64,000 nt of DNA from Limnobacter humi (GTDB lineage Bacteria; Pseudomonadota; Gammaproteobacteria; Burkholderiales; Burkholderiaceae_B). Shown here piece by piece: positions 3,771-20,832 of this stretch. Where the stretch lies: positions 620,001 to 684,000 of the forward strand of contig NZ_JANIGO010000001.1 in NCBI RefSeq assembly GCF_024518835.1, written 5' to 3'. The notes beneath the pieces were generated by a model, which saw only the letters and a list, made by a program, of their open reading frames with translations, was not told where the DNA came from and did no database searches. Within the stretch, counting starts at the first letter, position 1; each line of letters starts with the position of its first letter. A program made the position numbers and the translations under genes.

Positions 3771-3794
3771 GATTTGGACTGTAAAGGTGATGCG

Positions 3795-3825: not shown

Positions 3826-3831
3826 CACCAC

Positions 3832-4740
3832 ATGGTTTCTTTCCGGTTCAAGAAAAGTTCATCGAGCAAAGACCCGTCCAACGGCACAGCCGGACGGGAA
3901 TACACCATTGATGAACTGGCCCGTACGGCCAACACCACCGTGCGCAATGTTCGGGCCTATCAAGACCGTGGCTTGCTGGCCCCACCTGAAAAACGCGGTC
4001 GCGTTGGCTTTTACAGTGAAGACCACCTGTCCCGACTGAAGTTGATTGGCCAAATGCTCGGCCGCGGTTACACCCTGGGCAACATTCAGGAAATGCTGGA
4101 TGCGATCGACAAGGGCTATGACCTTCGGCAGTTGCTCGGTTTAACGCACGCCATCACCAGCCCGTGGACGGACGAAGCGCCCAAGAATTTCAACCCGGTG
4201 CATTTGGCCACCATGTTTGGTACCAACCTTAGCCGCGGTGCGTTGGCACGCACCATCGAACTGGGTTTGCTGGAACCGGATGGTTTGAGATACCGGGCCA
4301 CCAGCCCAAAAATTTTGCATGCTGGTGCTGAAATGGCCGCTGCGGGCATTCCGCTCATCGATCTGCTGGAGTTGATTGCGTCGCTGCGCAGCCACCTGGA
4401 AAGTTTTTGTGATCAGGCGGTGTCCTTGTTCGTGAAAGAGCTGGACCAATACGGCGACAACTTGCCGCCCAAAGAAGAACTGCCCCGATTGGCTCAGTTG
4501 ATCTGGAAAATTCGACCGTTGGCCATGACAGCGATTGAATCGGAAGTGTCGCGGGCGCTGCAAAAATCTGCCAGCAAGTTTGTGGACGAACGCATCATGG
4601 GTCTGCTGGACAAAATGGCCGAGGAAGCATTGCCGGGCTTGAACCTGTCTGGCATTAAACCGGATTGGTCCATGCCCGCTGCAAGCCCCGCCACGGATCC
4701 GGACGCCGCCAGCAGCGGTGAACCACCTTCCGAGCGCTAA
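3832..4740 (+). CDS. MerR family transcriptional regulator with long C-terminal domain
   Basis: DNA-binding regulator. The winged helix-turn-helix runs from about residue 22 to 92 (EYTIDELARTANTTVRNVRAY, then QDRGLLAPP and FYSEDHLSRL). The remaining 200 residues are helical and do not resemble a metal-binding MerR tail, as no paired cysteines are present, so the effector is unknown. The start was chosen at the ATG at 3832, because the longer open frame upstream runs into the pldA promoter and lacks similarity to the family. It is divergent from pldA with a 61-base gap, so pldA is a possible target besides its own promoter. The C-terminus (A/S/P-rich) is probably disordered. Confidence 0.85.
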   Translation: MVSFRFKKSSSSKDPSNGTAGREYTIDELARTANTTVRNVRAYQDRGLLAPPEKRGRVGFYSEDHLSRLKLIGQMLGRGYTLGNIQEMLDAIDKGYDLRQLLGLTHAITSPWTDEAPKNFNPVHLATMFGTNLSRGALARTIELGLLEPDGLRYRATSPKILHAGAEMAAAGIPLIDLLELIASLRSHLESFCDQAVSLFVKELDQYGDNLPPKEELPRLAQLIWKIRPLAMTAIESEVSRALQKSASKFVDERIMGLLDKMAEEALPGLNLSGIKPDWSMPAASPATDPDAASSGEPPSER

Positions 4741-4749
4741 TCCGAACGG

Positions 4750-7700
4750 TCAATTCACAGTGGTCGGCGGTTGTTGCCGGCCGTGTTCGTTCAGCACCAA
4801 CCACAGGGTGTTGCCTTCCGTGGTGGATTCATAATCAAAACGGGACGACACCAGGTGGATGAACTTCAACCCCATGCCGCCCTCGGGCAAACGGTTCAGC
4901 TCGGTTTCTTCATTGATGGTGCAGCGCTGTGCGATTGCATCCAGCACCGCCACGGGGATGGGCTTGCCCTGGTCGTTTAATACAATGCCCAAGGCATGCT
5001 CAAAAGCCAGCACCGCAATCACGGCTGGCTTGGGGCGCTCTGCCCGGAAACCATGCACCATCACATTGGTCAGCGCCTCAGACACCGCAAGGTCCGCATT
5101 GTAGGCCACTTGGTCGTCATAACCCAGGCGCTCCGAAAACGCCCGCACCGCTTGGCTAACCGCACCAATGCTGGTGGTATCGCACACCAAGCGGTAGGCC
5201 ATGCTGTCCCGCAATTCACCCAGCGTCAACGGCTCGCAGGTGGCATCCAGTCGATCGCGGGTCTGCAAGGCAAGACCCAGCAGCCGCTGCTTCCAGTAGT
5301 CCATTTGGTTGGGCGCAAAGTCCCAGGGCTGGACATCAAATTGCTCGCGCCATTGAATACCGCTGAGCATGAAGTCCTGAAGGTTGTATTCCAACACCGG
5401 ATTCAAGCTGAGCAACCGGGCAAACTCATCTTCCAACCTGCAATGGCCCTGCCATCGCGCATCGTCAGGCAACAACACCGACTGTGTCCACACGGCAGGA
5501 TCGGTCAACCCCAACCCTTCGGCACACACGGATGGATAAATGAAAAGTCGGCTGCCAGGCTTGATCAAGTCCTGAAAAATCACCTGCCCCTGCGGTGCAT
5601 TGACCGCCTGAAACAGGGGAGTCTCGCCGGGCTGTGCAATCAGCACCGACCAATGGCCCAGACCGGCTAGCAGCAGGGAGCCCTGGTCCAGGTTCAACAA
5701 ACCATACAACAGGTCAAACGGCCTGCGCTTGGCACCCAGCGAGGGGGAAATCTCCATGAGTTCAGCCTGCACCAGCGCTGGCGAGGCCAGGTGACGGCGC
5801 AATTTCGAACTGGAGGGGTCCTTGGGAAACAACACCTGGGTGGCCCGGTCCAGCGAGAACCAGCGAGACAGGGCCATGGCCTGCAGGGCCGTGGAGGTGT
5901 CATCGCCAGGCATGGAGATCATGAAAAACCCATACTCATTGGGTTGGGTCTCAAGCAAACCCATTTGCTGGCCACACACATAAGCCTGCGGCTGATACAG
6001 CATTTGCAGGGCAAACGGCCAAGGCTCGGTTCTGGTTTTGGGCAAGAGGGCCCGCTGGATGCGGGACACCTCGCGCATGTCACGTTGCAAAGCGTCGTAC
6101 AGCGCGGCCAACTCGGAATGCCTGGCCTCTAGGCTGGTGTGCAGGTCGGCGATGCGCTCAGCGGTTTTCAGGCGAACCTTCAACTCACTGGGGTTGACTG
6201 GCTTGGTCAGGAAATCATCAGCGCCCACACGCAAGCTGTTGAGCAAATCATCCCGGGTTGCATACCCCGTGATCATGATGATGTAAATGTAGGAATCCTG
6301 GTGCGCACGCACATGCTCGCACAACTCAATCCCGCTCATCCCGGGCATGTCCCAGTCGGTCAATACAAAGTCAGGCTTGACCGAATCAATCAGGGTGACC
6401 GCCTCATGCCCGTTCTTGGCGGCATGCACCTCATAACCCCAACTGTTGAGCATGGCCTCGAAAATTCGAAGAAAACTCTTGGAGTCGTCGACAATCACTA
6501 TGGATTTGGGTGCCAGTTCATGGTGGATGTCCAGCTCATGCGCGGGCAGAATTTCCTGATGGCGAAACACGGTTTCGCCTGAATTTTTGCGGCCGCCCGG
6601 GTTGGCATCCACCGAGAGAAAAGGATCGGCTGACAACATGAGGATGGACACATCGTCCTGGAAACCGTGTTGCTGAACCGCCTTACCGCCCCAGTCCAGA
6701 ATGGTCTCCTCGATCAGGTGTGGCAACCGTCCGGGCAACCCGCCCTGTGCCAGTACCTGGGCCTCAATGCTGCGCAGCAGTCGATCTTCACCAAAGCCTT
6801 CGTCCTGAGGCGACATCACTTCGGTCAGACCATCGGAGTACAGCAACAGCACATCTCCCTGCTCCAGGGTGAGGTCAATGTCCTCGAAATCGTCCGTGTC
6901 AAACAGGCCCACGGGATAACCCCCGCCACCCAACGTGCGGACTCGGCCATCCGATTTGATCAACAGCGGCGAAGGGTGTCCTGCCTGACACAGGGAAACC
7001 TTGCGGGTTCGACTGTCCATCAGGCCATAAATCATGGTGAAGTAGGACAGGTCAGTGTCTGTCTGCTGGAAGAGGCGGTTCAAACGGGCAACCACCCGTG
7101 ACGGTTGAGCCACGGTGCGGGCAGTGGCGTGTCCGCCACCCTGGTCATAGAGCAAACTGGATGCAGATTGATCCGCAAACATTTGAACCAGTTGCATCGA
7201 TTTGACCGCAGCTGGCACCCCATGGCCCGACACATCCAGCAGGTAAAAGCCATAAACGTCCGGCTCCAGCTGAAACACATGCAGGTGGTCCCCAGACACA
7301 TACATGGATGGCGCTGACAGCCATTGATAATGCAGTTGGGGAAACGGCGACACCGCCGGGGGCAGATAACTGCGCTGCAAGACCGAGACTGTTTTGAGGT
7401 CGTCGGCAATGGCCTTGTGCGCCTGTGCCAAAGCGTCGGTTTGGTGCTTCAGTTGGGCCTGCAATTCAATGCGGCGAACAGCCGATTGCAAACGGGCTTC
7501 CAGCTCATTGCCATCAATCGGCTTGCTGAGAACGTCATCGGCTCCGGCATCCAGCGCTTTGATGAGAAACTCCTCATCCGACTGGGCCGACATCAAAATA
7601 ACGTAGGTGTATTGTTCCAGCGCCATGTCGCGAAGCTGCTGGCACAGTTCCGTGCCCTGCATGCCCGGCATTTGCCAGTCTGCAAGCACCAGTTGGAATT

Positions 7701-7866
7701 TGTCGTGTTGAATGCGAGAGAGTGCTTCTTGGCCACTGGAGGCCACTTCAACGCCGTAACCCCATTTGGAGACCATGTGGACAAACAAGCTCCGCTCCAC
7801 CACGGAGTCGTCCACCACCAGTATTCGGGGAAGTGCCCGGTCAACCATCGGGCTGTTTGCAGACAT
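4750..7866 (-). CDS. Partner-switch regulator: REC-PP2C-REC-pseudoPP2C-HATPase
   Basis: Large soluble signalling protein (1038 aa). Domains in order: receiver 1 (about 13-130, acidic pair D19/D20, phosphoacceptor D63); coiled linker; SpoIIE/RsbU-type PP2C phosphatase (about 165-400, metal-binding Asp D193, D211 in DVSGHG, D345 in SDGLTE); receiver 2 (about 455-575, D460/D461, phosphoacceptor D504, TKP lysine); a matching linker; a second PP2C-like module (about 605-800); and an RsbW-like HATPase domain (about 890-1030, N-box asparagine N934 in EALTNV, G-box GGMGLKF). In PP2C 2 the three metal Asp positions read Q633, S651 and Ser (IYPSV), so it should be inactive. Such proteins phosphorylate and dephosphorylate a STAS partner; the STAS gene overlaps the start as TGATG. 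Confidence 0.88.
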   Translation of the reverse strand: MSANSPMVDRALPRILVVDDSVVERSLFVHMVSKWGYGVEVASSGQEALSRIQHDKFQLVLADWQMPGMQGTELCQQLRDMALEQYTYVILMSAQSDEEFLIKALDAGADDVLSKPIDGNELEARLQSAVRRIELQAQLKHQTDALAQAHKAIADDLKTVSVLQRSYLPPAVSPFPQLHYQWLSAPSMYVSGDHLHVFQLEPDVYGFYLLDVSGHGVPAAVKSMQLVQMFADQSASSLLYDQGGGHATARTVAQPSRVVARLNRLFQQTDTDLSYFTMIYGLMDSRTRKVSLCQAGHPSPLLIKSDGRVRTLGGGGYPVGLFDTDDFEDIDLTLEQGDVLLLYSDGLTEVMSPQDEGFGEDRLLRSIEAQVLAQGGLPGRLPHLIEETILDWGGKAVQQHGFQDDVSILMLSADPFLSVDANPGGRKNSGETVFRHQEILPAHELDIHHELAPKSIVIVDDSKSFLRIFEAMLNSWGYEVHAAKNGHEAVTLIDSVKPDFVLTDWDMPGMSGIELCEHVRAHQDSYIYIIMITGYATRDDLLNSLRVGADDFLTKPVNPSELKVRLKTAERIADLHTSLEARHSELAALYDALQRDMREVSRIQRALLPKTRTEPWPFALQMLYQPQAYVCGQQMGLLETQPNEYGFFMISMPGDDTSTALQAMALSRWFSLDRATQVLFPKDPSSSKLRRHLASPALVQAELMEISPSLGAKRRPFDLLYGLLNLDQGSLLLAGLGHWSVLIAQPGETPLFQAVNAPQGQVIFQDLIKPGSRLFIYPSVCAEGLGLTDPAVWTQSVLLPDDARWQGHCRLEDEFARLLSLNPVLEYNLQDFMLSGIQWREQFDVQPWDFAPNQMDYWKQRLLGLALQTRDRLDATCEPLTLGELRDSMAYRLVCDTTSIGAVSQAVRAFSERLGYDDQVAYNADLAVSEALTNVMVHGFRAERPKPAVIAVLAFEHALGIVLNDQGKPIPVAVLDAIAQRCTINEETELNRLPEGGMGLKFIHLVSSRFDYESTTEGNTLWLVLNEHGRQQPPTTVN

Positions 7867-8204
7867 CAGCTTTTGCGCAGCGCTTCCAGCGCTTTGGGGA
7901 TGTCATCCACCAACAGGAATTGGCGGTCCATCCGGGAGAGTTCAAACATCATTCGAACCGATTTGTGCATGCCCACCAACGCCAGTTTGCCTTGATGGCT
8001 CATGACGTTTTTCAGCAGCGCCACCAATGCACCCAGGCCACCGGAATCCACCAATTTAACTTGGCTGATGTCAACAGCAATTTTATTTTGGACGTCAATC
8101 TTGGACACCACGGTGTTGCGAATGATGGTGCCCACCGCGCTGTCCAGCCGGACGGCTTCAACCCGTACCACCAGTGCGCCATCCAGCTCTTCAGTTGAAA
8201 TCAT
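7866..8204 (-). CDS. STAS-domain anti-sigma factor antagonist
   Basis: Small single-domain protein (112 aa) of the SpoIIAA/RsbV type. The conserved phosphorylatable serine is S54 in LVDSGGLGAL, preceded by the usual strand VDISQVKLV. It is the likely substrate of the kinase and phosphatase domains encoded by the next gene, whose ATG shares one base with its stop codon. A Shine-Dalgarno-like AAGGAAC precedes the start. The gene is divergent from the cellulose operon, so it may switch a factor acting on cellulose production; that link is inferred from position only. Confidence 0.88.
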   Translation of the reverse strand: MISTEELDGALVVRVEAVRLDSAVGTIIRNTVVSKIDVQNKIAVDISQVKLVDSGGLGALVALLKNVMSHQGKLALVGMHKSVRMMFELSRMDRQFLLVDDIPKALEALRKS

Positions 8205-8286
8205 GATTATTGTTCCTTGATGAAGGCCCGCCCATGTGCGTTGCCAGAATCATCCAAACGCCTGCTTTGTCATGAATAAATGACAT

Positions 8287-8314: not shown

Positions 8315-8393
8315 GATATCGTGTGAAAAGAGGGTTAAATTGCGGTGTAGTTTTCAGAAACATCGACAAAAACAGTGGGTTTCCGGCCTGTGC

Positions 8394-10712
8394 ATGCCTG
8401 TCAACCCCACAAAAAAACCCATCCGCTTGACCAACCGATTGAACGCTATGCGCCCATTGCTCCCGATTGCCTTGTTCACAGTAACCGCTTTCGCTGTTTC
8501 AGCCCAGGCTCAACCCGTGACCCTGCAACCCGCTGCAACCGCAACAGCGGTCATCAACGCTGCAGCCACATTGCCGCCCACGGCACCAGCGGGTTCTGAG
8601 CGTACCTTAACACTGGCCAACATGGGTCAGCCAGGCGGCATCAAGCTCACGGGCGTGAACAAATCGATTGAATTGAATTCAGGTGTTCGACTGGATGAAC
8701 TGGTCAAACGGGCCAGCCTGAACCTGAAAATGATGTACCCGTCGGGCATGCGGCACGACCAGTCATTCATTCGGGTGTATGTGAACAACCAGTTGGCCGC
8801 CATCTCCCCCTTGACCGAGAGCAAGGCTGGCGTTTTGCACGCCACACGCATCGACCTGGACCCCACGCTGTTCACGGATTTCTCAGGCATCCGGATTGAA
8901 CTGGACGCAACCTACGACACGACTTGCCGCGACCCCAACAACCCCACCTTGCGGGTGGACATTCGCCCCGACAGCACATTGACCCTGGCCACAGACCCGC
9001 TGACCCTGGTGGACGACCTGGCAGTGCTGCCGGCGCCTTTCTTTGACCCGCGTGACAACCGGAAACTGAGCTTGCCCCTGGTACTGCCTTCGACCATTGA
9101 TGCCAACAGCCTGAAAGCTGCTGGCATATTGGCGTCCTGGATGGGGGCACAGGCCTTTTATCGCCAAGCCGAGTTTGAGGTGCTGACTGCACCCGATGAC
9201 AGCCGCCACAGCGTGATCCTGAATGTGACGGATCGGCTGCCAGAGTCGCTGGGTGGTCAGGCCCTCCAAGGGCCGACCCTGGCCATGGGGTCCACCGCTG
9301 AGAAACCCTGGGTCAAACAATTGTATGTGTTGGGTCGCACCGACGATGAGCTGCTGCAGGCGGTGTATGGCTTGGTGGTTGAGGGCCAGGTGCTCAGTGG
9401 CAAGGTGGCTGTGGTGAAACAGGTGAACCTGGGTGCGCCGCGCAGGGCTTACGATGCGCCGCGTTATGTGGCGACTGACCGCCCCGTGCGCTTTGCAGAA
9501 CTCATGGACTACCCCACGCAACTGGAAGCCAGTGTGGAAAATCCAAAAGTTCGGCTGAACCTTCGCCTGCCGCCAGACTTGTTTAGCTGGGCGGGTCGCA
9601 ACGTGCCCATGGCGTTGAAATATCGCTACACGGCCCCCTCCAAATGGAATGACTCCCTGCTGAATGTGGAAATCAACAACGCGCTGGTGCAGTCATTCAG
9701 GCTGGCCCCCCGCTCGGAACAGGGCCAAAACAGGCTGAACATTGACTTGCTGGGCCAGGCGGAACTGGCCAGCGAAACCGCCTTCCAGATTCCTGCATTC
9801 CGGGTTGGCGGCAACAATGAATTGTCATTCGGGTTTGGCTTCATGCCGGAGGGCGGAAGCGCCTGTGTGACGCAAAACCAGACGGCTCGCGGTGCCATCG
9901 ACCCGGAATCCACGGTGGACTTTTCCGAATTGCCGCACTACACCAAAATGCCCAACCTGACCGCATTTGCCAACGGCGGCTACCCCTTTTCCATCTTTGC
10001 CGACCTGTCCGACAGCGCCGTGGTGCTGCCCCAGCAGCCCAACAGCGCGGAAATTCGGGCTTATCTCAACCTGATGGGTTTGTTTGGCCAGTGGACTGGT
10101 TTGCCGGCCAACCGGGTGGCGGTGATCACCGGCGATCCGAAAGTCTCGGTGGGCACCAAGCACTGGATTGCACTGGGCCGCAGCGACCGCTTGCCGTGGC
10201 TGGCGGCTCAGCAGATGAGCCTGCCGATGGTGCTGAGCGACACAGAACGCAGCCTGGGGCTGTCGCCTGTGCTGGGCTGGTTCGACCGGATTTGGTCCAA
10301 CCGCGAGGACATGCCACCGTCTGAGCAGACTCGCGCGTTGATTCAAAGCGGCGGCAGTCTGGGGGCCATTGTGGGCTTTGAGTCCCCCTGGGGCAGTCAG
10401 AAAACTGGCTTGGTGATTACCGGAACGGACGAAACCGGCTTTGAGCGGGCTGTGTCGGCGTTTGGAAACTACACCGACATTGCCAAGGTGCGGGGCAGCG
10501 TCACCCTGGTGCGGGGAGAGGAGCTGCAGGCTTATCACATCGGAAAAACCTTTGTGAGTGGCAACCTGCCCTGGTGGCTGCGGATTCGCATCGCCTTCTC
10601 GGAGCACCCGGTGCTCATTGCCCTGGGCGGCGCACTGGCTGGCATGGCCTTGGCTCTGATTGCTTACGGCTGGCTGTCTCGAAGGGCGTCGCGTCGCATC
10701 AAAGGCGGTTAA
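8394..10712 (+). CDS. bcsB: Cellulose synthase regulatory/periplasmic subunit BcsB
   Basis: Periplasmic subunit that caps BcsA in the inner membrane and guides the nascent glucan. It has a signal peptide (cleavage near AQA-QPV), a long strand-rich periplasmic body with alternating carbohydrate-binding-like and flavodoxin-like regions, and one C-terminal membrane helix (about the last 40 residues, HPVLIALGG to AYGWLS) with a basic tail. The length of about 770 aa is normal. The start is uncertain: ATG 8394 gives a long basic n-region and ATG 8448 gives a compact signal peptide; neither has a strong Shine-Dalgarno. It is the first gene of a nine-gene operon, with three bases to bcsZ. Confidence 0.93.
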   Translation: MPVNPTKKPIRLTNRLNAMRPLLPIALFTVTAFAVSAQAQPVTLQPAATATAVINAAATLPPTAPAGSERTLTLANMGQPGGIKLTGVNKSIELNSGVRLDELVKRASLNLKMMYPSGMRHDQSFIRVYVNNQLAAISPLTESKAGVLHATRIDLDPTLFTDFSGIRIELDATYDTTCRDPNNPTLRVDIRPDSTLTLATDPLTLVDDLAVLPAPFFDPRDNRKLSLPLVLPSTIDANSLKAAGILASWMGAQAFYRQAEFEVLTAPDDSRHSVILNVTDRLPESLGGQALQGPTLAMGSTAEKPWVKQLYVLGRTDDELLQAVYGLVVEGQVLSGKVAVVKQVNLGAPRRAYDAPRYVATDRPVRFAELMDYPTQLEASVENPKVRLNLRLPPDLFSWAGRNVPMALKYRYTAPSKWNDSLLNVEINNALVQSFRLAPRSEQGQNRLNIDLLGQAELASETAFQIPAFRVGGNNELSFGFGFMPEGGSACVTQNQTARGAIDPESTVDFSELPHYTKMPNLTAFANGGYPFSIFADLSDSAVVLPQQPNSAEIRAYLNLMGLFGQWTGLPANRVAVITGDPKVSVGTKHWIALGRSDRLPWLAAQQMSLPMVLSDTERSLGLSPVLGWFDRIWSNREDMPPSEQTRALIQSGGSLGAIVGFESPWGSQKTGLVITGTDETGFERAVSAFGNYTDIAKVRGSVTLVRGEELQAYHIGKTFVSGNLPWWLRIRIAFSEHPVLIALGGALAGMALALIAYGWLSRRASRRIKGG

Positions 10713-10715
10713 GGC

Positions 10716-11861
10716 ATGGGCATTCGGCGCTTTCTGGGCTTGGTGTGCGGATTGACCACGGTTTGTGCACTGACCACGGCCTGTCAGGCGGCCAACCGCT
10801 GGCCAGCCTGGGAGGGCTACCAGGCGGCATTCATCAGCGACGATGGGCGTGTCATCGACCGCAGCCAGGAGGACCTCCGCACGGTGTCTGAAGGGCAGGC
10901 CTATGCTATGTTCTTTGCACTGGTGGCTGGCGACCAAACGCGATTCAACCAGTTGCTGAAATGGACAGAGGACAACCTGGCCAAAGGAGATATCCGCCGC
11001 AACCTGCCAGCCTGGATTTGGGGACGGCAGGCCGAACAGTGGGGGGTGTTGGATGCCAACAGTGCCTCGGATGCTGATTTGTGGATTACTTACGTGCTCT
11101 GGGAAGCAGGCCGGCTGTGGTGCAACCCGGGTTATCAAGCCAAAGCGCAGGCTTTGGGCCAGCGCATTCTCCAACAAGAAACCTTGACCGTGGAAGGCCT
11201 GGGTTTGAGTGTTTTGCCGGGTCCCCAGGGCTTTGTGGCTGACAATGGCACCGTTCGACTCAACCCCAGCTATGTGCCTCCTTTCCTGATGATGCGTCTG
11301 GCACAAGTCTGGCCCGATGATGCACGCTGGGCGCAACTCTACCTGGGCAGCCAGCAACTGCTGCTGGCGTCGGTTCGACAAGGGGCTTTCCCAGACTGGG
11401 CCGAGGTTCGACAGGGGCAAGTGGTGTGGGCAGGCGATGATCTGCGAGGGGATTACGATGCCATTCGAACCTACCTGTGGATCGGCTTGACCCCAGCCAC
11501 GGACCCCATACAAGGCACGCTGAAACAGCAAACTCGACCAGTCCTGAACCTGGTCAAGGCACGTGGCAATATGCCGGAGTGGTTTACCGGGACTGACACG
11601 GTGTTGCCAGCCGATCATCCCGGCCCAGCCGGATTTCAAGTGGCCACAGCCCCGTTTGCAGCCAGCCAGGGAGAACCTGCATTGGCCCAGGCCCTGTTGA
11701 AACAGGGGCTGCAACAAGCGCCCCGTGAACAATGGGTGGCTTACGGTTATTACAATGCATCATTGACCCTGTTTGGGGAAGCCGCCATGAACAAGCGCTT
11801 CAATATTGGACCGCAAGGCGAATTGTTGCCCGCCTGGAAGGGGAACCAGTCATGCAGCTGA
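10716..11861 (+). CDS. bcsZ: Periplasmic endo-1,4-beta-glucanase BcsZ (GH8)
   Basis: Family 8 glycoside hydrolase that trims cellulose in the periplasm and is needed for proper export. The signal peptide ends near CQA-ANRW. The general acid lies in the family motif TVSEGQAYAM (E59), and the second conserved acidic site is NSASDADLWI (D119, D121). The length of 381 aa fits the family. The stop overlaps the bcsC start by 10 bases. Confidence 0.94.
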   Translation: MGIRRFLGLVCGLTTVCALTTACQAANRWPAWEGYQAAFISDDGRVIDRSQEDLRTVSEGQAYAMFFALVAGDQTRFNQLLKWTEDNLAKGDIRRNLPAWIWGRQAEQWGVLDANSASDADLWITYVLWEAGRLWCNPGYQAKAQALGQRILQQETLTVEGLGLSVLPGPQGFVADNGTVRLNPSYVPPFLMMRLAQVWPDDARWAQLYLGSQQLLLASVRQGAFPDWAEVRQGQVVWAGDDLRGDYDAIRTYLWIGLTPATDPIQGTLKQQTRPVLNLVKARGNMPEWFTGTDTVLPADHPGPAGFQVATAPFAASQGEPALAQALLKQGLQQAPREQWVAYGYYNASLTLFGEAAMNKRFNIGPQGELLPAWKGNQSCS

Positions 11862-14251
11862 CACCGACACGGAAAAAGCCAGTCCTGATCGCCGTGCATT
11901 GCCTGCTGACGGCCATGGCCTGGTCGCCCAGTGCTCAGGCTGCACCGGCCACCGCCGCTGTTGAGCCCAGCAATTTGCAGGTGCTGGAAGACAAAGGCCA
12001 GTACTGGTTGGCCCGCAACCGTTACGACCTGGCCAGCCAGATGTTCAACAAAATGTTGCTGGTGGACCCCGACAATGCGGCTGCCCTGCGGTGGCAAGGG
12101 TTGGTGGAACTGCGAAAAGGGGAAGTCCAAGCCGCTGGCATCTGGGCCAAACGGCTTCAGGGCCTGGTGGGTGCCAACCACCCCCTGGCACTGGAGTTAA
12201 ACCAGGCCATTGAACTGGCTGGCAACAAGCGACAGGCCTTCGCCGAACTGAAATATTTGGCCAATAGCGAACGGGTGCCAGCCGACCTGCCCACCCGACT
12301 TCAAGGCCTGTTGGACAAACCACCCGTGGGGGAAGCTGCGCTGCAGATTTATGGTCAGATGGCCAGAACGCCCGAAGGTCGGGCCTTGGCCCGCCAGCGC
12401 CTGAACAGCCTGAGTCTTCAGTTTCCGAACGACCAGCGTTACCGCGCCGCATTGGCCGAGTTGGGGGGTGGTGGAGCAGCCGTGGCTGCAAACCCGGCCG
12501 CAACACCATCCAGCCGCGCCACGGCCAAACCTGGGGCATTGCCCGTCAACAAGGCCAACGGTGGTGATGCCCCGGGTGAGCTTGCCGCTGGCAACACGGT
12601 GGTGGCCCCCGTCAACACCCTCGGTAATTTTGAGCAAGGCCAACAACTCAGCGACCAGGCTCAGCAGGCCAGGCAGCAGGGTGATTTGGCCAGCGCCATG
12701 GCCCTGCTGAAAAAAGCGATTTCGCTGAACCCAGACTACGCCTGGTTCCGGTTTGAGCTGGCTGGCCTGCAAAATGATTTGGAGACCCGGGAAGGACGGA
12801 TCGCTGCACAGCAGACGATGCAGGACGGCTTGGCAATTAAAGCGGACCCCGACATGCGCTTTGCGTCAGCACTCATTGCAGCCCGCCAAAACCGAAACAC
12901 CGACGCGCTGACCTTGCTGGAGCCCATCGCCCCAGCCGATCGAACCGACGGCATGAACGCCTTGGTTCAGCGCATTCAGCTGGGCGAGTTCCGGGCTCAA
13001 ATGGCGAGCCTGGAAGACGCCGGGCGGTACAACGACCTCGCCACCCTGCTGAGCCAACCCAACCCCTGGCGTGCCGAACCCACGGTATTTGCCAAACAGG
13101 AAGAACTCCAGGAGCGGCTTCGCCCGCGTGTGCGCATGGGCTATGAAGACAGCGCCATTGACGGCAGCCCGGGGGTGTCGGGCATTCGAAGCACCGAAGT
13201 GCCCATCCAGGTGGACCTGCCACTGGATTTTGAAAAACGGCTGTTTGTCCGCTTGGACCAATTGCAGGCCAAGGCCGGGCAAGTGGATGTGCCCAATGCC
13301 ACCAATTTCGCCCAATTGGGCACCACGGTGGCCAACGACCCGGCGATCCAGTCACGTTTTCTGACTCAAAACTACCGCGGACAAGTGCTGGGCGTGGGTC
13401 TGCAGACAGACACCTGGCGAGTCGACCTGGGCAGCACGGCGGGTGATCTGCCCGTGAACAGTTGGGTGGGTGGCCTGCAATGGAAAACCCCCGTGGGGGA
13501 CAATGGATCACTGCGCCTGGATATTGCCCGCCGCATGGTCGGCGGCAGCGTACTGTCCTCCACAGGTGCCATCGACCCGCTCACCGGCCAACGGTGGGGT
13601 GCTGCACGTCGCAATGGGGTTTCAGCGGTGTATTACACGCCGCTGTCACCCACGGTTGATTTTGTCGGCATCGGCAAGGCCAATCTGATCACCGGTGAGC
13701 ACATGCCCGACAACACGGAACTCAATCTGCAAGGCATTCTGAGCAAAGCGGTGTACCAAAACCAGGGCCAGAAAGTTGAAGTGGGCGCCTCCTTGTACCT
13801 GTGGTCTTTCCAGAAAAATCTGCGCTTCTATACCTACGGGCAGGGCGGCTACTACAGCCCACAAGCCTTTGGCTCATTCACCATTCCGGTGACCTGGACG
13901 GGTCGACGCAACCACTGGTCATGGCGCTTACAAGCCAGCATTGGTGCCAGCGAATCGAAAGAAGATGCCACCGATCTTTATCCATTGGACCCCCAATTGG
14001 CCGCAGCCGCCGCAGCGCGCGGCAACGCCACACGGGACGCCGGCGGGCCTGGTGGTGGCACCAGCACAGGGCTGCGAGCCCAAATCGAGCATCGGTTGAT
14101 GCGCAACCTGGTGGTTGGTGCCTTGCTGGAAATTGACCGCTCTGAAGGCTACAACCCAGACCGGGCACAGGTTTACCTCAAGTACTCGTTCGGTGGTCTG
14201 TTTGATCTGAGTGTGCCACCCGAGGGCATCACGCCCTACTCGAGATTCTGA
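11852..14251 (+). CDS. bcsC: Cellulose secretion outer-membrane protein BcsC (short form)
   Basis: Outer-membrane exporter: periplasmic TPR solenoid plus a C-terminal porin-like barrel. The ATG at 11852, inside the end of bcsZ, gives a signal peptide ending near AQA-APAT. TPR-like helices occupy about residues 35-205 and 255-430, separated by an A/P/T-rich linker around 210-250. The last 340 residues form the BcsC barrel and end in YSRF with a terminal Phe. At 799 aa it is much shorter than the 1157-residue E. coli protein, so it has fewer TPRs and presumably spans a shorter periplasmic distance. Confidence 0.92.
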   Translation: MQLTPTRKKPVLIAVHCLLTAMAWSPSAQAAPATAAVEPSNLQVLEDKGQYWLARNRYDLASQMFNKMLLVDPDNAAALRWQGLVELRKGEVQAAGIWAKRLQGLVGANHPLALELNQAIELAGNKRQAFAELKYLANSERVPADLPTRLQGLLDKPPVGEAALQIYGQMARTPEGRALARQRLNSLSLQFPNDQRYRAALAELGGGGAAVAANPAATPSSRATAKPGALPVNKANGGDAPGELAAGNTVVAPVNTLGNFEQGQQLSDQAQQARQQGDLASAMALLKKAISLNPDYAWFRFELAGLQNDLETREGRIAAQQTMQDGLAIKADPDMRFASALIAARQNRNTDALTLLEPIAPADRTDGMNALVQRIQLGEFRAQMASLEDAGRYNDLATLLSQPNPWRAEPTVFAKQEELQERLRPRVRMGYEDSAIDGSPGVSGIRSTEVPIQVDLPLDFEKRLFVRLDQLQAKAGQVDVPNATNFAQLGTTVANDPAIQSRFLTQNYRGQVLGVGLQTDTWRVDLGSTAGDLPVNSWVGGLQWKTPVGDNGSLRLDIARRMVGGSVLSSTGAIDPLTGQRWGAARRNGVSAVYYTPLSPTVDFVGIGKANLITGEHMPDNTELNLQGILSKAVYQNQGQKVEVGASLYLWSFQKNLRFYTYGQGGYYSPQAFGSFTIPVTWTGRRNHWSWRLQASIGASESKEDATDLYPLDPQLAAAAAARGNATRDAGGPGGGTSTGLRAQIEHRLMRNLVVGALLEIDRSEGYNPDRAQVYLKYSFGGLFDLSVPPEGITPYSRF

Positions 14252-14262
14252 GCGGGGCTGGC

Positions 14263-15657
14263 ATGCTACAGGCAACACTTGCGGGCGTTTACGCCATTCG
14301 CTCCGCCAACGCACAAGGAACAGCCCAGGCCATGGTACAAAGCTGGCTGCGACAGGACGCACTGTGGACCGACATCCGTGGTTGCCTCTGGATGACGGCC
14401 AGCCCCCAAAGCCATGTTCGTCAATTTCTACAGCCCTACCTGCAGCGCCGCGCTGCCGCACCGAAGGGTCTGGATGTGGTGTCCGTGCGGCATTTGTGGT
14501 CACGCGGTGGCGGTGAGGATGGCGTTCAGCAACTTTGCCGCTCACTCCATGGCCTGGTGGTGTTAAAGCCGGGCTTGGTGATTCTGGAACACCCGTCTTT
14601 GTGGTTTGATCATGGCCAAGCCGCGCTGTCCGAACTGAACCCGTTGTTTCAGATGCGCCTGATGCAACGCTGGGCCCGGTATGCCAACTGTCGGGTGTTG
14701 TTGTGTATCGAAGGCGAAATTCCCCACTGGTGCGCATTTGCCGATGGCCTTGCTGAACTGGATGAACGCGGAGAGCCCGAGTTTCTGCCCTGGTGGCCAA
14801 GTGCCAGTGAAACCTTGAAATCGGCACTGTGGAACCCCAGCGAGCCTGCTGAGGATCTACCCAGCCTGCAGGTTCGTGAGCGAGATTGCGGCAGCCTTCA
14901 ACAATTGGGGCATACAGTGCACAGCGCACGGTTCAACGCCCATCATGCCCTGCGGATTGTGGTTTACCTGAACAATCCGGAGACCCTGGCCGACGCGTCG
15001 GTATTGCTCAGGCTCGGTGCCGATGAAGTGCGTCTGGTACAGACCGTGTCGCCCAGCGAGGATGCTGCAGCCACACTGGTAACGCCTGCATTGGTGGACG
15101 ATGCGCAGGGCCTGTTGTTCAGTCGAGATCTGCATGAGATTTTCATGCCGGGGCAGCTTTCTCTGCTGTCAAACCATGCATTTGCCAGACTGGGGCTCAT
15201 GATGCTGGAAGTGGCCACCCATTGGGGCATGCAGTGCACGATCACGCGGTTGTCCTTGCAGGGGCATGTCACGGCACAAACCGCCATGAAGCTGGTCAAT
15301 TTCGGCGACGCGGCCTGTATGTTCACCGCCACCCGGGAAGCGATTTACCTCATGAAGCTATGGTCCCACAAGCCCACAGACGGCAGTCTGGATGAATGGC
15401 TGGCACAGTGCTTCCGGGAGCGGATTCCCGTCATTGCCAGTGGCCATGTTCATGTGCAGGACAACGACAGCCAGGCCGATCTGCTGATGGATCTGGAGGG
15501 AGAACTGGAGCCGATTGCGCCGGAAGTCCTCATGACGGACCCGCTGCATGCACCAGCACAACTGGCAGAGGTTTGGTTTGACCCAGAGGCCATCGGCCAT
15601 CAACGCCCCTGGGGACAACGATTGCAGGGATGGTCACAAAAACAGGTGAATGCATGA
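14263..15657 (+). CDS. bcsE: BcsE-like cellulose biosynthesis protein
   Basis: Cytosolic accessory factor (464 aa); in enterobacteria BcsE binds c-di-GMP through its GIL domain and, with BcsF, BcsR and BcsQ, raises cellulose output. The assignment rests on position between bcsC and bcsF, on a P-loop/RecA-like N-terminal half, and on GIL-like strands at about 225-270 (ALRIVVYL, then LLRLGADEV). At the place where I expect the RxGD nucleotide motif the sequence is R223-F-N-A-H, with no aspartate, so c-di-GMP binding is doubtful. The stop overlaps the next ATG. Without an alignment the family call is probable, not certain. Confidence 0.72.
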   Translation: MLQATLAGVYAIRSANAQGTAQAMVQSWLRQDALWTDIRGCLWMTASPQSHVRQFLQPYLQRRAAAPKGLDVVSVRHLWSRGGGEDGVQQLCRSLHGLVVLKPGLVILEHPSLWFDHGQAALSELNPLFQMRLMQRWARYANCRVLLCIEGEIPHWCAFADGLAELDERGEPEFLPWWPSASETLKSALWNPSEPAEDLPSLQVRERDCGSLQQLGHTVHSARFNAHHALRIVVYLNNPETLADASVLLRLGADEVRLVQTVSPSEDAAATLVTPALVDDAQGLLFSRDLHEIFMPGQLSLLSNHAFARLGLMMLEVATHWGMQCTITRLSLQGHVTAQTAMKLVNFGDAACMFTATREAIYLMKLWSHKPTDGSLDEWLAQCFRERIPVIASGHVHVQDNDSQADLLMDLEGELEPIAPEVLMTDPLHAPAQLAEVWFDPEAIGHQRPWGQRLQGWSQKQVNA

Positions 15658-15866
15658 TGAATTGGCTGATCTTGGGCGGTTTGGGCCTGCTGTTGGGTAT
15701 CCTGCTGTCGGTTTGGCTCATCAACCGATTGTTGAAGGTGCCCACCACCCGCGTGTGGTTGTCGGATTGGGCCAATTGGAGCAACAACCAGATTCCGGAC
15801 GGTTGCTACCAAATGGTTCGACACGGCAAGTGGGTAGCCCACGCCGATCACAGCGAGGATGCATGA
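15654..15866 (+). CDS. bcsF: BcsF-like small membrane protein
   Basis: 70-residue protein with one N-terminal membrane helix (about residues 3-24, LILGGLGLLLGILLSVWLI), a basic NRLLK stop-transfer segment and a short cytosolic tail. BcsF of E. coli has the same size and layout and anchors BcsE at the membrane. Position between bcsE and bcsQ supports the call, since sequence identity in this family is low. ATG 15654 overlaps the bcsE stop (ATGATGA), with a second ATG at 15657. Its own stop overlaps the bcsQ ATG. Confidence 0.7.
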   Translation: MMNWLILGGLGLLLGILLSVWLINRLLKVPTTRVWLSDWANWSNNQIPDGCYQMVRHGKWVAHADHSEDA

Positions 15867-16600
15867 TCACCATTGCCCTCATTTCCAGTGTGGGTGGCGC
15901 AGGCCGAACCAGTTTGGCCACCGCACTTGCACACCACCTGAGCCAATTGGGTCGCCCAGTTCGGTTGGTGCAACTCGACCCGAAAAACAATTTGCCTTTT
16001 CAACTGGGTTTGAACACGGCGGCTGACCGTGGCGTGTTTCAAGCTGCACAGCAACAACTGTCCATGCTGGACATTCAGTTGCCGCTGAACGCACCGTTTC
16101 AGGCAGTGCCTTTCGGCAGTGCGGTGTTGTCGCAGCTCTGCGGATTTGAACATCAGTTGGTAGACAACCCACAGACCTTGACCACCACCCTGTTTCGGGA
16201 CGCCCAAGCCGGCCTGATTCAACTGCTGGATCTACCAGCCTGGCCCAGCGCCTTGGCCAATGCAGCCCTTTCTTTCACCGACCTGAACCTGGTTTTGCTC
16301 ACCCCGGATACCCATGCTGTGCTGGGCATTGACCCCTTGCTGCCCCAGTTGTTGCGCAGCCGCGGTGCCTCCTATTTTTTAATGAATCGCTTCGATTCCA
16401 CCAAGGTGTTGCACCTGGACCTGTGGACACTGTGCAAAACCAAGCTGGGCCACCGCCTGTTGCCCTTTTATCTGCATGAAGACCAGGGCTTGCCGGAAAG
16501 CACGGCTGCCGGTGTCTCGCTGGGTGAATACGCCCCCAAATCGCAGTTGCTGGAGGACCACCAGAAACTGGCGAACTGGATTGATGCGGAGCTGTCATGA
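15863..16600 (+). CDS. bcsQ: BcsQ, MinD/ParA-like cellulose synthesis NTPase
   Basis: Cytosolic MinD-like protein (245 aa) that, with BcsR, organises the synthase at the pole in E. coli. The N-terminal P-loop region reads SSVGGAGRTS: both lysines of the deviant Walker A KGGxGKT are replaced (V and R). E. coli BcsQ has a similarly altered loop, so this is a family trait rather than decay. Other ParA-like landmarks are VQLDPKNN and LLDLPAWPS. Start and stop both overlap neighbours by four bases, indicating tight coupling to bcsF and bcsA. Confidence 0.86.
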   Translation: MITIALISSVGGAGRTSLATALAHHLSQLGRPVRLVQLDPKNNLPFQLGLNTAADRGVFQAAQQQLSMLDIQLPLNAPFQAVPFGSAVLSQLCGFEHQLVDNPQTLTTTLFRDAQAGLIQLLDLPAWPSALANAALSFTDLNLVLLTPDTHAVLGIDPLLPQLLRSRGASYFLMNRFDSTKVLHLDLWTLCKTKLGHRLLPFYLHEDQGLPESTAAGVSLGEYAPKSQLLEDHQKLANWIDAELS

Positions 16601-19098
16601 AGGCCGTGCACCACCCGCTAGAACGGCTCCTGGTTCAGATTGAACGTCTGCTGGACCTGCGGACCTATCCCAATCTGGGCGCGCCACAGCGTTTCAAACG
16701 CATATTTCTGTCCATGTGGCTTCGCCCAAACAGCCTGAATGCGTTGCCAGGTCATGTTGGCAGCACCAGAACACCCCAAGCCGACCAGTTAGTCAGGCGT
16801 GTGGTGAACGCGGCCATTCATGATTTGTTTTCACCGGGCATCCAGCTGTTCAACACCCTGCTTCGACAGCCGTACCGCTTTTTGCGCAACAAAACCGGGC
16901 GTGGGGTGGACTGGTTGGCCGAAAAAATTCAGATCGAGCGGCGAGTTGACAACATCAGCGCTGTTGTCCAAACCTCTGGGCCCATCCGCTGGTTGCTGGG
17001 CTTCAGCGCGCTGGTGTCCTTCCTGTTCACAGCGCAGGCTTCGCTGCCTTTGGCCGGGCAGTGGATGTTCATTCTGGTGTGTTACCTGTTGGCCATGGCA
17101 TTCAAGCGTTTGCCAGAACGCTTCTCACACCTGTGCCTAATGGCACTGACCATTCTGGTGTTGGCGCGCTATGTGTTTTGGCGCTTTACCAGTTCGCTCG
17201 ACCTCAACAGCGGCGTGGAGCTGTTTTTGGGGTACACACTGGTGGCGGCGGAAGCCTACACCTGGATCATCCTGATTTTTGGATTCATCCAGACAGCCTG
17301 GCCCTTGAAGCGCCGCCCCTTGCCATTGGACCTGAATTTTGCGGAATGGCCCACGGTGGACATTTACATTCCGACGTACAACGAACCACTGTCCGTGGTG
17401 CGTCCCACCGTGTACGCCGCCAAAGGCATCGACTGGCCAGTGGACAAAGTGACGGTCTACATTCTGGATGATGGCCACCGCCCCGCCTTTGAAGAATTTG
17501 CACGACAGGCTGGGGTGGAATACATTTCACGGCCCGATAATTCGCATGCCAAAGCAGGGAATATCAACTATGCACTGCGCCAAACCCACGGCCAGTACAT
17601 CGCCATTTTCGACTGCGATCACATACCCACCCGCTCCTTCCTGCAGACCAGCATGGGCTGGTTTCGCCGCGATCCAAAGTGCGTGCTGGTGCAAACACCC
17701 CACCATTTTTTCTCAGCCGACCCCTTCGAACGCAATTTCAATTTCTTCCGGCAAATGCCCAATGAAGGCTCGTTGTTTTACGGCTTGATCCAAGACGGCA
17801 ACGACTACTGGAATGCCTCGTTTTTTTGCGGCAGCTGCGCCGTGATTGAGCGCAAAGCCCTGTTGGAAGTGGGTGGCATTGCAGTGGAGACAGTTACCGA
17901 AGATGCGCACACAGCCCTCAAGCTGCACTCGCTGGGTTACCACAGCGTGTACCTCAACAACATTCAGGCGGCTGGCTTGGCCACCGAAACCCTGTCGGGG
18001 CACATTGGCCAGCGCATCCGCTGGGCGCGTGGCATGGCGCAAATCTTCAGGCTGGACAACCCGATGTTCAAGAAAGGGCTCAGCTTTTTCCAGCGCATCT
18101 GTTACTCCAATGCCATGCTGCATTTTTTCTATGGCATCCCGCGGCTGATCTTCCTCATCATGCCGCTGGCCTATTTGTTCTTTGAGTTTCACCTCATCAA
18201 TTCCGCAGCAGTGACCATCCTCAGCTATGCGCTACCCCAGTTGATGATTGCCAGTTACACCAATTCAATTATTCAAGGCAAATACCGGCGCAGCTTTTGG
18301 TCGGAAGTGTATGAAACCGTGCTGTCGTATTACATTGTGCTGCCCACCACGTTGGCCTTCATCAACCCACGCTTGGGCAAATTCAACGTGACAGCCAAAG
18401 GCGGTCTCATCGACAAAAGCTACTTCGACGCCAACATTGCAAAACCCTATCTGGTGCTGCTGCTGCTCAACCTGATCGGATTTGCAGTCGGTTTGGTGCG
18501 ACTGTTCTTTTTCAACACCCATGAAGTGGGTACCGTGCTGATGAACCTGTTGTGGTGCGGCTTCAACCTCGCCATTTTGGGTGCAGCAGTGGGCGTGGCC
18601 ACCGAGTCCATCCAAAAGCATGTTCACCACCGGGTGCGCATGATCATGCCAGCCTTTTTGCGCTTGCCTGGCGGGTACACCTTAAGCTGCCACACCGAGG
18701 AGTATTCGGCGGCAGGCCTGACCCTGGCTGTGGGTGAAACCGGCAGCCTTCGGGCATTCAGCGATGTGCAAGTGGGCCTGCACCGTGGTGATCGCGAATT
18801 TCTATTTCCTGCCAAGCTGATTCCAGTCGACGACTCACGGGTGGAAGCCCAGTTCAGCAACTTGACCCCGGAACAAGAGGCCCAACTGATCCAGTGCACC
18901 TTTGGGCGGGCTGATGCATGGCTCAACTGGCAGGAAGACGAAACACGAGACCGCGCCTTGGGTGGGTTGAAAGATGTATTGAAGAAAGGGGGCATTGGGT
19001 ATGTGCGCCTGTTTACCTGGCTCCATGAAATTGGTCGCATGGTCACCAACCGACTACTGGGCAACAAAGACCAGGCTGAACACTGGGAGCGACGTTAA
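16597..19098 (+). CDS. bcsA: Cellulose synthase catalytic subunit BcsA
   Basis: Inner-membrane family 2 glycosyltransferase making beta-1,4-glucan from UDP-glucose. It has an N-terminal extension of about 125 residues, then membrane helices. The catalytic motifs are D291-D292-G, D339-C-D341, T434-E-D436 and Q472-R-I-R-W476. More helices follow, then a C-terminal PilZ domain. In the PilZ domain the usual RxxxR reads H675-V-H-H-R679 and DxSxxG reads E702-Y-S-A-A-G707, so two of the nucleotide-contacting residues are changed. The length of 833 aa is normal. The start overlaps bcsQ by four bases. Confidence 0.96.
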   Translation: MKAVHHPLERLLVQIERLLDLRTYPNLGAPQRFKRIFLSMWLRPNSLNALPGHVGSTRTPQADQLVRRVVNAAIHDLFSPGIQLFNTLLRQPYRFLRNKTGRGVDWLAEKIQIERRVDNISAVVQTSGPIRWLLGFSALVSFLFTAQASLPLAGQWMFILVCYLLAMAFKRLPERFSHLCLMALTILVLARYVFWRFTSSLDLNSGVELFLGYTLVAAEAYTWIILIFGFIQTAWPLKRRPLPLDLNFAEWPTVDIYIPTYNEPLSVVRPTVYAAKGIDWPVDKVTVYILDDGHRPAFEEFARQAGVEYISRPDNSHAKAGNINYALRQTHGQYIAIFDCDHIPTRSFLQTSMGWFRRDPKCVLVQTPHHFFSADPFERNFNFFRQMPNEGSLFYGLIQDGNDYWNASFFCGSCAVIERKALLEVGGIAVETVTEDAHTALKLHSLGYHSVYLNNIQAAGLATETLSGHIGQRIRWARGMAQIFRLDNPMFKKGLSFFQRICYSNAMLHFFYGIPRLIFLIMPLAYLFFEFHLINSAAVTILSYALPQLMIASYTNSIIQGKYRRSFWSEVYETVLSYYIVLPTTLAFINPRLGKFNVTAKGGLIDKSYFDANIAKPYLVLLLLNLIGFAVGLVRLFFFNTHEVGTVLMNLLWCGFNLAILGAAVGVATESIQKHVHHRVRMIMPAFLRLPGGYTLSCHTEEYSAAGLTLAVGETGSLRAFSDVQVGLHRGDREFLFPAKLIPVDDSRVEAQFSNLTPEQEAQLIQCTFGRADAWLNWQEDETRDRALGGLKDVLKKGGIGYVRLFTWLHEIGRMVTNRLLGNKDQAEHWERR

Positions 19099-20832
19099 AT
19101 GCTGCCGTGGAACCTGTACTTTCTGATTAAACTGGGCCTGCACTTGGGCAGCGTGCTGCAGTTGGAGGGCTGGTTGAACCTGGCCCTGTTTGCAGCCTTG
19201 GTGCTCACCAACCCACTCAAACGGTTTGCTGGCCGATGGATGGGGTTGCTGCGGGACATCCTGTTTGCAGGCCCGGCCATTGCACTGCTGCTGCATGAAT
19301 TGGGTTTGGTGGTGTCGTGGGCTTTGCTGGACCAAATCCGACAACTGTTTGGCTTCTCGGTGGGGTATCTGTGGGAACTGGTTCGGCGGTCGATTGCGCC
19401 GTGGATGTTGTGGGGCGCCTTGGGTGCCTATCTGGCTGTGCGTGTGCTGGATCGATACATCCGCACCAGCACCTGGGTATTTTGTGGATTGATCGCCATC
19501 AGTGCCCACCAGGTGCTGTGGCTGGGGAACGACGGCGACGATGGCACGGACGGCTCACAGACCGTGAAAGCTGGCAGCTGGCTGGCCCGTGAAAACCTGT
19601 CACCCGCTGAACTACTGGCTTTGGGCCAATTGGATTACCAGCGCCTGAAAGTAGCCCGACATGAAGAACGCATTGCAAAAATGCGGGACAGCACGAACAA
19701 CGCCGATGGGCCTGACGCGATCCTGAATGGTTTTTTTGAACGGCAAAAAGCCCTGTTGCCTGGGGCACTGAGTGCAACACCGGTACCGCCCGACTTCGAT
19801 TTGGTGTTCCTGCAAATCTGCTCACTCTCCTGGGCCGACATGCAAGTGGCCCGCCAAACCCAGCATCCGGCCTTGCGAAATGCGGACTTCATTTTCGAGA
19901 ACTTCAACTCGGCCACCAGCTATTCAGGACCGGCAGCCATTCGCCTGCTGCGGGGCCGCTGTGGGCAGCCCCGTCACGATGCGCTGTATCAACCAACCGA
20001 GGACAGTTGCTACCTCTTTGGTCAGCTTCGCAACGCCGGTTTCTCCATTGAAGTGGGCTTTAACCACAACGCCCTGTTTGAGAATTTCAGCAAGGTGGTG
20101 TTGAACAACCTGGGTAGCCAGGCCGACCAGCCCGTGCCTTACAACAGTGTGCCCACCGGCGTGGTGGCGTTTGACGGCAGCAGCGTGGGGCGGGATGTCG
20201 ACTACCTGCGAACGTGGTGGATGAAACGGCAGGAAAGCGGGAAACCCGCCGTTGCGCTGTATTACAACACCATCACGCTGCACGATGGCAACCGCATCCC
20301 TGGCAACGACCAAAACAGCCTGGCCACCTATCCACTTCGGCTGGAGCGTTTGTTGAACGACATACAAAGCATGGTGGGCGACATTCGCAAAAGTGGCCGA
20401 AAAGCCTTGGTGATGGTGGTGCCAGAACACGGTGCCGGTTTATCCGGCGAATACGGTCAACTGGTGGGGCTGCGTGAACTGCCCACACCGGCCATTACCA
20501 AAGTGCCTGTGTTTGGCTATTGGGTTGCCCCCAAGACAGGCGGCGACATTCCCCAAAAAACAGCCGACCCCACGGCCCCCCGGGGCCCCGCACTGGTGCG
20601 CCAGCCATCCAGTTACACCGCGCTCAGCGAGTTGCTCAACCGCTGGGTCAACGCCACGCCGGAGCAACGGCAAAACCCGAACTGGGGTTTGTTAACCGCG
20701 GATTTGCCCACAACCCGCCTGGTGTCCCAACAAGGCAACATCACGGTGATGGAAAGCAAAGACAGCTATTGGCTGAAAGCACCGGGCGTTGAATGGCGCA
20801 CACTGGGCCCGGTCAACAGGCTCACACCGTGA
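19099..20832 (+). CDS. bcsG: Cellulose phosphoethanolamine transferase BcsG
   Basis: Inner-membrane enzyme that moves phosphoethanolamine from lipid to cellulose. Four or five N-terminal membrane helices (to about residue 140) precede a periplasmic zinc-dependent alkaline-phosphatase-fold domain. The nucleophile region is NSATSYSGPA (S276, matching E. coli S278 with a constant offset of two). C241 in QICSLSW and E443/H444 in VPEHG match the E. coli zinc ligands. The product therefore should be pEtN-cellulose. It follows bcsA directly. Confidence 0.94.
   Translation: MLPWNLYFLIKLGLHLGSVLQLEGWLNLALFAALVLTNPLKRFAGRWMGLLRDILFAGPAIALLLHELGLVVSWALLDQIRQLFGFSVGYLWELVRRSIAPWMLWGALGAYLAVRVLDRYIRTSTWVFCGLIAISAHQVLWLGNDGDDGTDGSQTVKAGSWLARENLSPAELLALGQLDYQRLKVARHEERIAKMRDSTNNADGPDAILNGFFERQKALLPGALSATPVPPDFDLVFLQICSLSWADMQVARQTQHPALRNADFIFENFNSATSYSGPAAIRLLRGRCGQPRHDALYQPTEDSCYLFGQLRNAGFSIEVGFNHNALFENFSKVVLNNLGSQADQPVPYNSVPTGVVAFDGSSVGRDVDYLRTWWMKRQESGKPAVALYYNTITLHDGNRIPGNDQNSLATYPLRLERLLNDIQSMVGDIRKSGRKALVMVVPEHGAGLSGEYGQLVGLRELPTPAITKVPVFGYWVAPKTGGDIPQKTADPTAPRGPALVRQPSSYTALSELLNRWVNATPEQRQNPNWGLLTADLPTTRLVSQQGNITVMESKDSYWLKAPGVEWRTLGPVNRLTP

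Follow-up and report, generated by a model that had tools for sequence, protein, structure and literature searches.

The stretch of DNA analysed here (the window) comprises 64,000 nucleotides of the Limnobacter humi genome, and the gene under study lies on its minus strand, behind a small STAS gene whose stop codon overlaps its start by 1 nt, and divergent from a cellulose (bcs) operon (Table 1). It is one open reading frame (ORF) with an ATG start, and its product of 1038 amino acids (P0001) is referred to below as the switch protein. Pfam searches with this protein gave two stretches matching Response_reg (8.8e-59), a single SpoIIE match at residues 203-412 (7.3e-41) and a HATPase_c_2 match at residues 897-1024 (1.8e-14). 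A second PP2C region was invisible to Pfam, the SpoIIE model giving no match there in 16/16 Limnobacter genomes. A full-length AlphaFold2 model, built with 12 Limnobacter sequences, showed the order REC1, helix 119-165, PP2C1, a loose stretch at 418-451, REC2, helix 559-606, a PP2C-like domain at about 618-839 and the HATPase domain at 885-1026, each of the two linkers being one long helix; its top Foldseek match was RssB of P. aeruginosa. The two receivers (REC) with aspartates D63 and D504 that had been read in the earlier note were found, and in the window's protein both pockets are complete. The RsbW-type kinase in cis with its N934 was likewise recovered through the HATPase_c_2 match; in a 14-row alignment, consisting of the window's protein and 13 other Limnobacter copies (G005 and G011 being left out), its residues E930, N934, D965, G967, G997 and G999 were invariant (14/14). 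By its sequence, the switch protein is composed of two receivers, one phosphatase, one seemingly dead PP2C copy and an opposing kinase.

The two PP2C domains differ at the metal sites. In PP2C1 the residues D193, D211, D345, D404 and D405 were invariant in 14/14 full-length copies, and the residues of PP2C2 at the D193, D211, D345 and D404 sites were Q633, S651, S779 and Q830. The first three sites had been named in the earlier note, both the Asp residues kept in PP2C1 and Q633, S651 and a Ser in PP2C2, and all were confirmed, the Ser being S779. The fourth site is an addition: D404-D405 of PP2C1 corresponds to Q830-D831 of PP2C2, and the first Asp of this DD motif (D404) is presumably the metal ligand. 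Across the 14 copies, site 633 was occupied by Q, K or E, site 651 by S or N, site 779 by S, Q, R or K with one D and one E, and site 830 by Q, G, S, one D, A or P, so that Asp was found at the first two sites in 0/14 copies. The copy of G004 alone had Asp at the third and fourth sites, with none at the first two. No alternative invariant acidic set was seen near the cleft when the PP2C2 alignment was inspected by eye. PP2C2 is seemingly a catalytically dead phosphatase copy.

When modelled alone, PP2C2 gave middling confidence, with a mean predicted local distance difference test (pLDDT) of 64 and a predicted TM-score (pTM) of 0.70. Foldseek against the PDB placed SpoIIE at the top (E 2.6e-7), with RssB, SiaA, RsbX and tPphA also matched. 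Across the 50 rows listed, the TM-scores normalised by query length were only 0.38-0.55, and, judged by titles, no non-PP2C fold was seen among these rows. A search of PDB sequences with the PP2C2 profile returned only two canavalin chains (E 0.37 and 0.89), and the fold assignment is therefore based on the model and on the homology to PP2C1. PP2C2 is predicted to retain the PP2C fold, as had been proposed for the region of residues 600-810.

Alignment of the two REC-PP2C halves with each other gave 32% identity over 308 amino acids by BLASTP (E 7e-50), and comparison of the PP2C1 and PP2C2 profiles by hhalign gave a probability of 99.2 (E 1.5e-19); the PP2C2 profile run against the own genome also matched PP2C1 of the switch protein (E 8.8e-19). 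These matches, far above chance, agree with the internal duplication of a REC-linker-PP2C unit suspected earlier, and on their evidence the halves are homologous. In a PP2C tree (8 of the 14 alignment rows and 13 outgroup rows) the stem branch of PP2C2 was long (2.38), and the order of duplication was not settled. An approximately unbiased test of a clade uniting units 1 and 2, run on 8 outgroup rows and 6 rows of the 14-row alignment, gave p-AU 0.216, so that their sisterhood was neither supported nor rejected. Since each half of the switch protein formed its own group in the trees, the duplication appears to be older than the spread of Limnobacter.

The switch gene was present in 15/15 other Limnobacter genomes examined and in Limnobacter sp. 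P1 (L058), and in all of these it adjoined the STAS gene, with bcsB divergent. A sequencing artefact is very unlikely, because the layout is conserved across the genus. In G005 the gene was split across two contigs; in G011, on a metagenome contig of 4729 bases from whose end the bcsB piece runs off, the later part of the gene lay in other frames, broken in the PP2C2 region. The PP2C2 reading frame was unbroken in 14/14 aligned copies. Ratios of nonsynonymous to synonymous substitution rates (dN/dS) were calculated pairwise, with 33-53 of 91 pairs per domain usable (dS 0.1-2), and are rough because many pairs were near saturation. The median values were 0.044 for REC2, 0.043 for linker 2, 0.094 for REC1 and 0.105 for linker 1, and among the enzymes 0.100 for PP2C1, 0.157 for PP2C2 (47/91 pairs) and 0.184 for the HATPase domain. 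Judged by these ratios, PP2C2 is under purifying selection, conserved rather than decaying, and within the switch protein evolution is slowest in REC2 and linker 2. The receivers differed in the same sense by invariant positions, 52/106 in REC2 vs 30/106 in REC1; the REC2 pocket (D460, D461, D504, T533 and K555) was invariant in 14/14 copies, and a REC1 pocket residue was lost in 3/14 (G001, G004 and G002). REC2, the receiver that precedes the dead phosphatase, is the most constrained domain. Within PP2C2 the N-terminal half was conserved, with a mean majority by segment of 0.84-0.86 (0.76-0.92 in PP2C1), and the C-terminal half, in which two of the metal sites lie, was loosely conserved (0.59 vs 0.77 in PP2C1); two inner segments held 12/32 and 10/40 invariant positions.

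Searches of genome samples with the PP2C2 profile gave only two matched genomes among 399 of the order, both Limnobacter, and seven matched genomes among 369 of the class, namely the own genome and six others, in which the matches lay only in frames of 207-450 amino acids. The PP2C1 profile matched in 199/398 genomes of the phylum. Among the matches listed, two in one frame were seen only in the own genome; the best ones outside Limnobacter lay in frames of about 400-470 residues, five of which were read and by eye look like REC-PP2C chains. Gammaproteobacterial loci (L070-L074, one labelled Steroidobacteraceae) matching residues ~1-579 were first taken for REC-PP2C-REC proteins and then rejected: the ORFs read there, identified by eye, encode hybrid histidine kinases with a REC-containing protein next to them, so that they match through receivers. 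The five-domain order was absent from the best 25 of 108 NCBIfam models matching P0001, Pfam gave single domains only, and the idea of a common named family was not supported, no such family having been found in Pfam, among these NCBIfam models or in the genome samples. Among the titles and abstract openings listed from the open-access literature, none described the layout or Limnobacter PP2C proteins. In sequence terms the layout is real, genus-wide and, among the sampled genomes, found only in Limnobacter. The absence of known precedent claimed in the earlier note held in so far as nothing similar was found outside Limnobacter in these samples. The layout is no lone oddity, being common to the genus, and the own genome encodes two further tandem-PP2C proteins.

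These two paralogues (L006:4700-7843 and L007:5953-8499) are only 27% identical to P0001, and in both of them receiver or receiver-like regions stand, by alignment, before the PP2C domains. The former (G000:C1), of 1047 amino acids, has two PP2C domains, a HATPase domain and one Pfam-visible receiver; the acceptor position of its REC1 is not Asp, PP2C1 is kept and PP2C2 degraded, and its gene adjoins T2SSE/T2SSF and N-methylated pilin-like genes (type II/IV secretion-like). The latter (G000:C25), of 848 amino acids and encoded a few genes before flagellar genes, has two PP2C domains with SGD/DV/SDG motifs in both, no HATPase domain and no Pfam-visible receiver; the aligned receiver acceptor positions are not Asp. 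In this it is nearly a mirror image of the switch protein. A further tandem paralogue (L054:2918-5932, G015:C21) has lost the motif Asp in its first PP2C (SGV, SEG) and keeps SGD and TDG in the second, so that the degraded half is opposite to that in the switch protein.

The STAS protein carries a Ser (S54) that was invariant in 16/16 Limnobacter copies aligned. The STAS model had three matches in the own genome: the window's, one at C1:236084 in a frame of 126 amino acids, and one in a frame of 764. Among 15 own-genome matches of the HATPase_c_2 model, the switch protein and the 1047-aa paralogue scored ~1e-15, and the other 13, in frames of 368-766 amino acids, scored no better than 1e-8; no small, separately encoded RsbW-type kinase was among them, all these matches lying in larger frames. 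Upstream of the STAS gene, at about 8204-8340 of the window, a cacgttatcctattgtttttgtatatgctc-like block was common to 11/15 Limnobacter genomes aligned, the own genome, G004, G015 and G002 differing in it by eye; a function as promoter or operator of STAS or bcs is conceivable. Sigma-54-like motifs, the sole promoter type scanned for, were sought in 15 genomes within 360 bases around the start of STAS, and no site was found. BcsG, encoded last in the cellulose operon, adds phosphoethanolamine to cellulose. The no-family gene of this operon encodes 464 amino acids without a Pfam or NCBIfam match, 29-46% identical in the Limnobacter loci that hold it, and by position its product could be BcsE-like. 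Convergent with the switch gene is a gene for a MerR-family regulator (3706-4740); with 78-92% identity to the counterparts in Limnobacter, it exceeds the neighbouring genes in conservation. G002 showed conservation on the bcs side, although none of the window's genes from the other side was found in the 3.7 kb taken there.

Table 1. Positions of the switch gene, its domains and the adjoining genes in the window.
Feature	Position	Strand	Basis
Switch protein, REC1-PP2C1-REC2-PP2C2 (putative pseudo-phosphatase)-HATPase	4750..7866	minus	ORF, translation, Pfam, orthologues
REC1, residues 13-118, phospho-acceptor D63	7513..7830	minus	Pfam, pocket conservation
Linker helix 1, residues 119-165	7372..7512	minus	AlphaFold2 model
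PP2C1, residues 176-416	6619..7341	minus	Pfam, alignment, sequence match to RssB
REC2, residues 453-558, phospho-acceptor D504	6193..6510	minus	Pfam, alignment
Linker helix 2, residues 559-606	6049..6192	minus	AlphaFold2 model
PP2C2, putative pseudo-phosphatase, residues 615-841	5344..6024	minus	Alignment, model, Foldseek, hhalign
RsbW-type HATPase kinase domain, residues 880-1026	4789..5229	minus	Pfam, alignment
STAS protein, 112 aa, S54 in DSGG	7866..8204	minus	ORF, Pfam
Divergent cellulose operon	8340..20832	plus	Pfam; synteny up to the 14263-15657 gene
bcsB	8340-10712	plus	Pfam (start codon as listed)
bcsZ	10716-11861	plus	Pfam
bcsC	11732-14251	plus	Pfam
No-family gene	14263-15657	plus	Within cellulose operon
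bcsQ	15650-16600	plus	Pfam
bcsA	16597-19098	plus	Pfam
bcsG	19099-20832	plus	Pfam

The neighbouring STAS gene with its invariant S54 is consistent with phosphorylation and dephosphorylation of STAS by the switch protein. We tentatively favour, at somewhat less than an even chance, a partner-switching controller in which kinase and PP2C1 act on Ser54 of STAS, the REC2-PP2C2 unit with the seemingly dead phosphatase gates the kinase, and cellulose is the output. The C-terminal RsbW-type kinase would phosphorylate Ser54 and PP2C1 would remove the phosphate, the state of STAS setting the output, most likely cellulose (biofilm) production through the divergent bcs operon. The first REC-linker-PP2C copy would have been kept as the enzyme, with REC1 gating PP2C1, and the second, having lost catalysis, would serve in signalling. 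Once phosphorylated at D504, REC2 would shift linker helix 2 and the pseudo-phosphatase, in the manner of the linkers of RsbU and RssB, and so gate the kinase that follows. Two histidine-kinase pathways could set phosphatase and kinase separately, in place of one receiver toggling both. In this more specific form, phosphorylated REC2 setting the serine kinase through the dead PP2C and phosphorylated REC1 independently setting the live phosphatase, so that two inputs converge on one STAS protein and on cellulose, the scheme is possible, if doubtful. STAS as the substrate, the directions of the gates, dimerisation and the cellulose output are what we infer. The retention of the dead PP2C across the genus suggests that this copy has gained a signalling role of its own, and the pattern of conservation, as read from the alignment, fits a REC2-gated kinase better than it fits binding alone or a relic. 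Several points weigh against this account. PP2C2 evolves faster than PP2C1 (dN/dS 0.157 vs 0.100); the segment that joins PP2C2 to the HATPase domain (842-879) is poorly conserved (0.50), which disfavours a precise rigid coupling to the kinase; the placement of the domains relative to one another in the full-length model is unreliable (pTM 0.43), which leaves a contact between PP2C2 and the kinase hypothetical; and the link to cellulose is one of gene neighbourhood only.

The pseudo-phosphatase might instead be a docking or trapping site, as proposed in the earlier note, binding STAS or phosphorylated STAS without hydrolysis and holding it near the kinase or shielded from PP2C1. Binding of the substrate of an active relative is common among pseudo-enzymes, and the seemingly retained fold and conserved N-terminal half of PP2C2 would suit such a function. 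The former active-site positions, however, show no fixed new set (K/Q/E at 633, N/S at 651, varied residues at 779 and 830), and the strongest constraint falls on REC2 and its linker, not on PP2C2; the better conservation of the receiver before the dead PP2C favours signal transduction over mere binding, and we consider docking unlikely, though worth keeping in view. Still less probable is that REC2-PP2C2 is an RssB-like adaptor for a target other than STAS, such as a sigma or anti-sigma factor. RssB of E. coli, a REC domain with a C-terminally truncated, inactive phosphatase domain, is an adaptor (PMC12143880), the best PDB match of the full-length model was RssB, and the E. coli-type RssB model of NCBIfam fitted best, though far below cut-off, at residues 449-611, that is at REC2 and linker 2. 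The genome also has two FlgM matches over the cut-off, FlgM being a target of HsbA in P. aeruginosa (PMC6482189). Against an adaptor, the switch protein falls outside the RssB family models (NF045505, 208 of 700 bits; NF007969, 161 of 329 bits, both below cut-offs), PP2C2 is joined in one chain to a kinase, which RssB is not, and no RpoS was found over the NCBIfam cut-off in the genome (best 277 bits vs 378.7), which lends no support to an adaptor that binds RpoS (sigma S) for ClpXP. A functionless, decaying relic of the duplication would account for the lost metal ligands, the long stem branch and the loose C-terminal half with its insertions; it is very improbable given the purifying selection, the invariant positions of the inner segments and the frame intact in every aligned copy, the one broken copy being that of the small G011 contig. 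It is hardly credible that PP2C2 retains catalysis through a changed or reduced set of metal ligands. A single Asp, D831, is kept in all 14 copies, and the copy of G004 has two of the other Asp residues; D831, however, is the counterpart of the second Asp in the DD motif, the first two sites are without Asp throughout, and no substitute acidic set was seen by eye.

The preferred reading, a partner switch with a REC2-gated kinase, belongs to a known kind of system; what is new is the doubling of the inputs and the dead PP2C within it. In HsbR of P. aeruginosa, PP2C and kinase domains dephosphorylate and phosphorylate HsbA under one receiver, and PP2C and kinase domains are also named for CrsR of the CrsR-CrsA pair of Shewanella oneidensis (PMC6482189). 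The HsbR-HsbA system resembles the present one in having REC, PP2C and kinase/anti-sigma domains in one chain, an anti-sigma antagonist as target and a role in lifestyle control (PMC6482189), and the switch protein shares with the HsbR/CrsR type receivers with a phosphorylatable Asp (D63, D504) and a PP2C domain, PP2C1, with its metal ligands. It differs in that HsbR has one REC-PP2C unit followed by the kinase, whereas the switch protein interposes a second REC-PP2C unit with a seemingly dead phosphatase; the sections of the HsbR account drawn on here mention no bcs genes (PMC6482189), whereas the switch gene is divergent from a bcs operon. SypE is described as kinase and phosphatase of SypA, a putative anti-sigma antagonist, in the polysaccharide biofilm of Vibrio fischeri, and likewise has a receiver, a PP2C and a serine kinase within a single polypeptide, but as one unit in the order kinase-REC-PP2C (PMC3610818). 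Rv1364c of Mycobacterium tuberculosis (PDB 3ke6) is, by its entry title, an RsbU-type phosphatase with an RsbW-type kinase in one chain, and that title names neither a receiver nor a second phosphatase. RssB, the top structural and top NCBIfam match of the switch protein, shares the REC-helical linker-PP2C arrangement, with an active phosphatase in P. aeruginosa and a pseudo-phosphatase in E. coli, and has no kinase domain and no duplication; the loose C-terminal half of PP2C2 is reminiscent of the truncated, inactive phosphatase domain of E. coli RssB (PMC12143880). Control of RsbU and RssB runs through helical linkers, by which the phosphatase domain is paired or moved (PMC12143880). In the closest controllers, HsbR and SypE, a single receiver switches both phosphatase and kinase; here the inputs are doubled, possibly as a layer of control over cellulose synthesis in Limnobacter. 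A seemingly dead phosphatase kept throughout a genus behind its most constrained receiver offers a testable case of PP2C linker signalling without catalysis, the question raised for RssB and RsbU.

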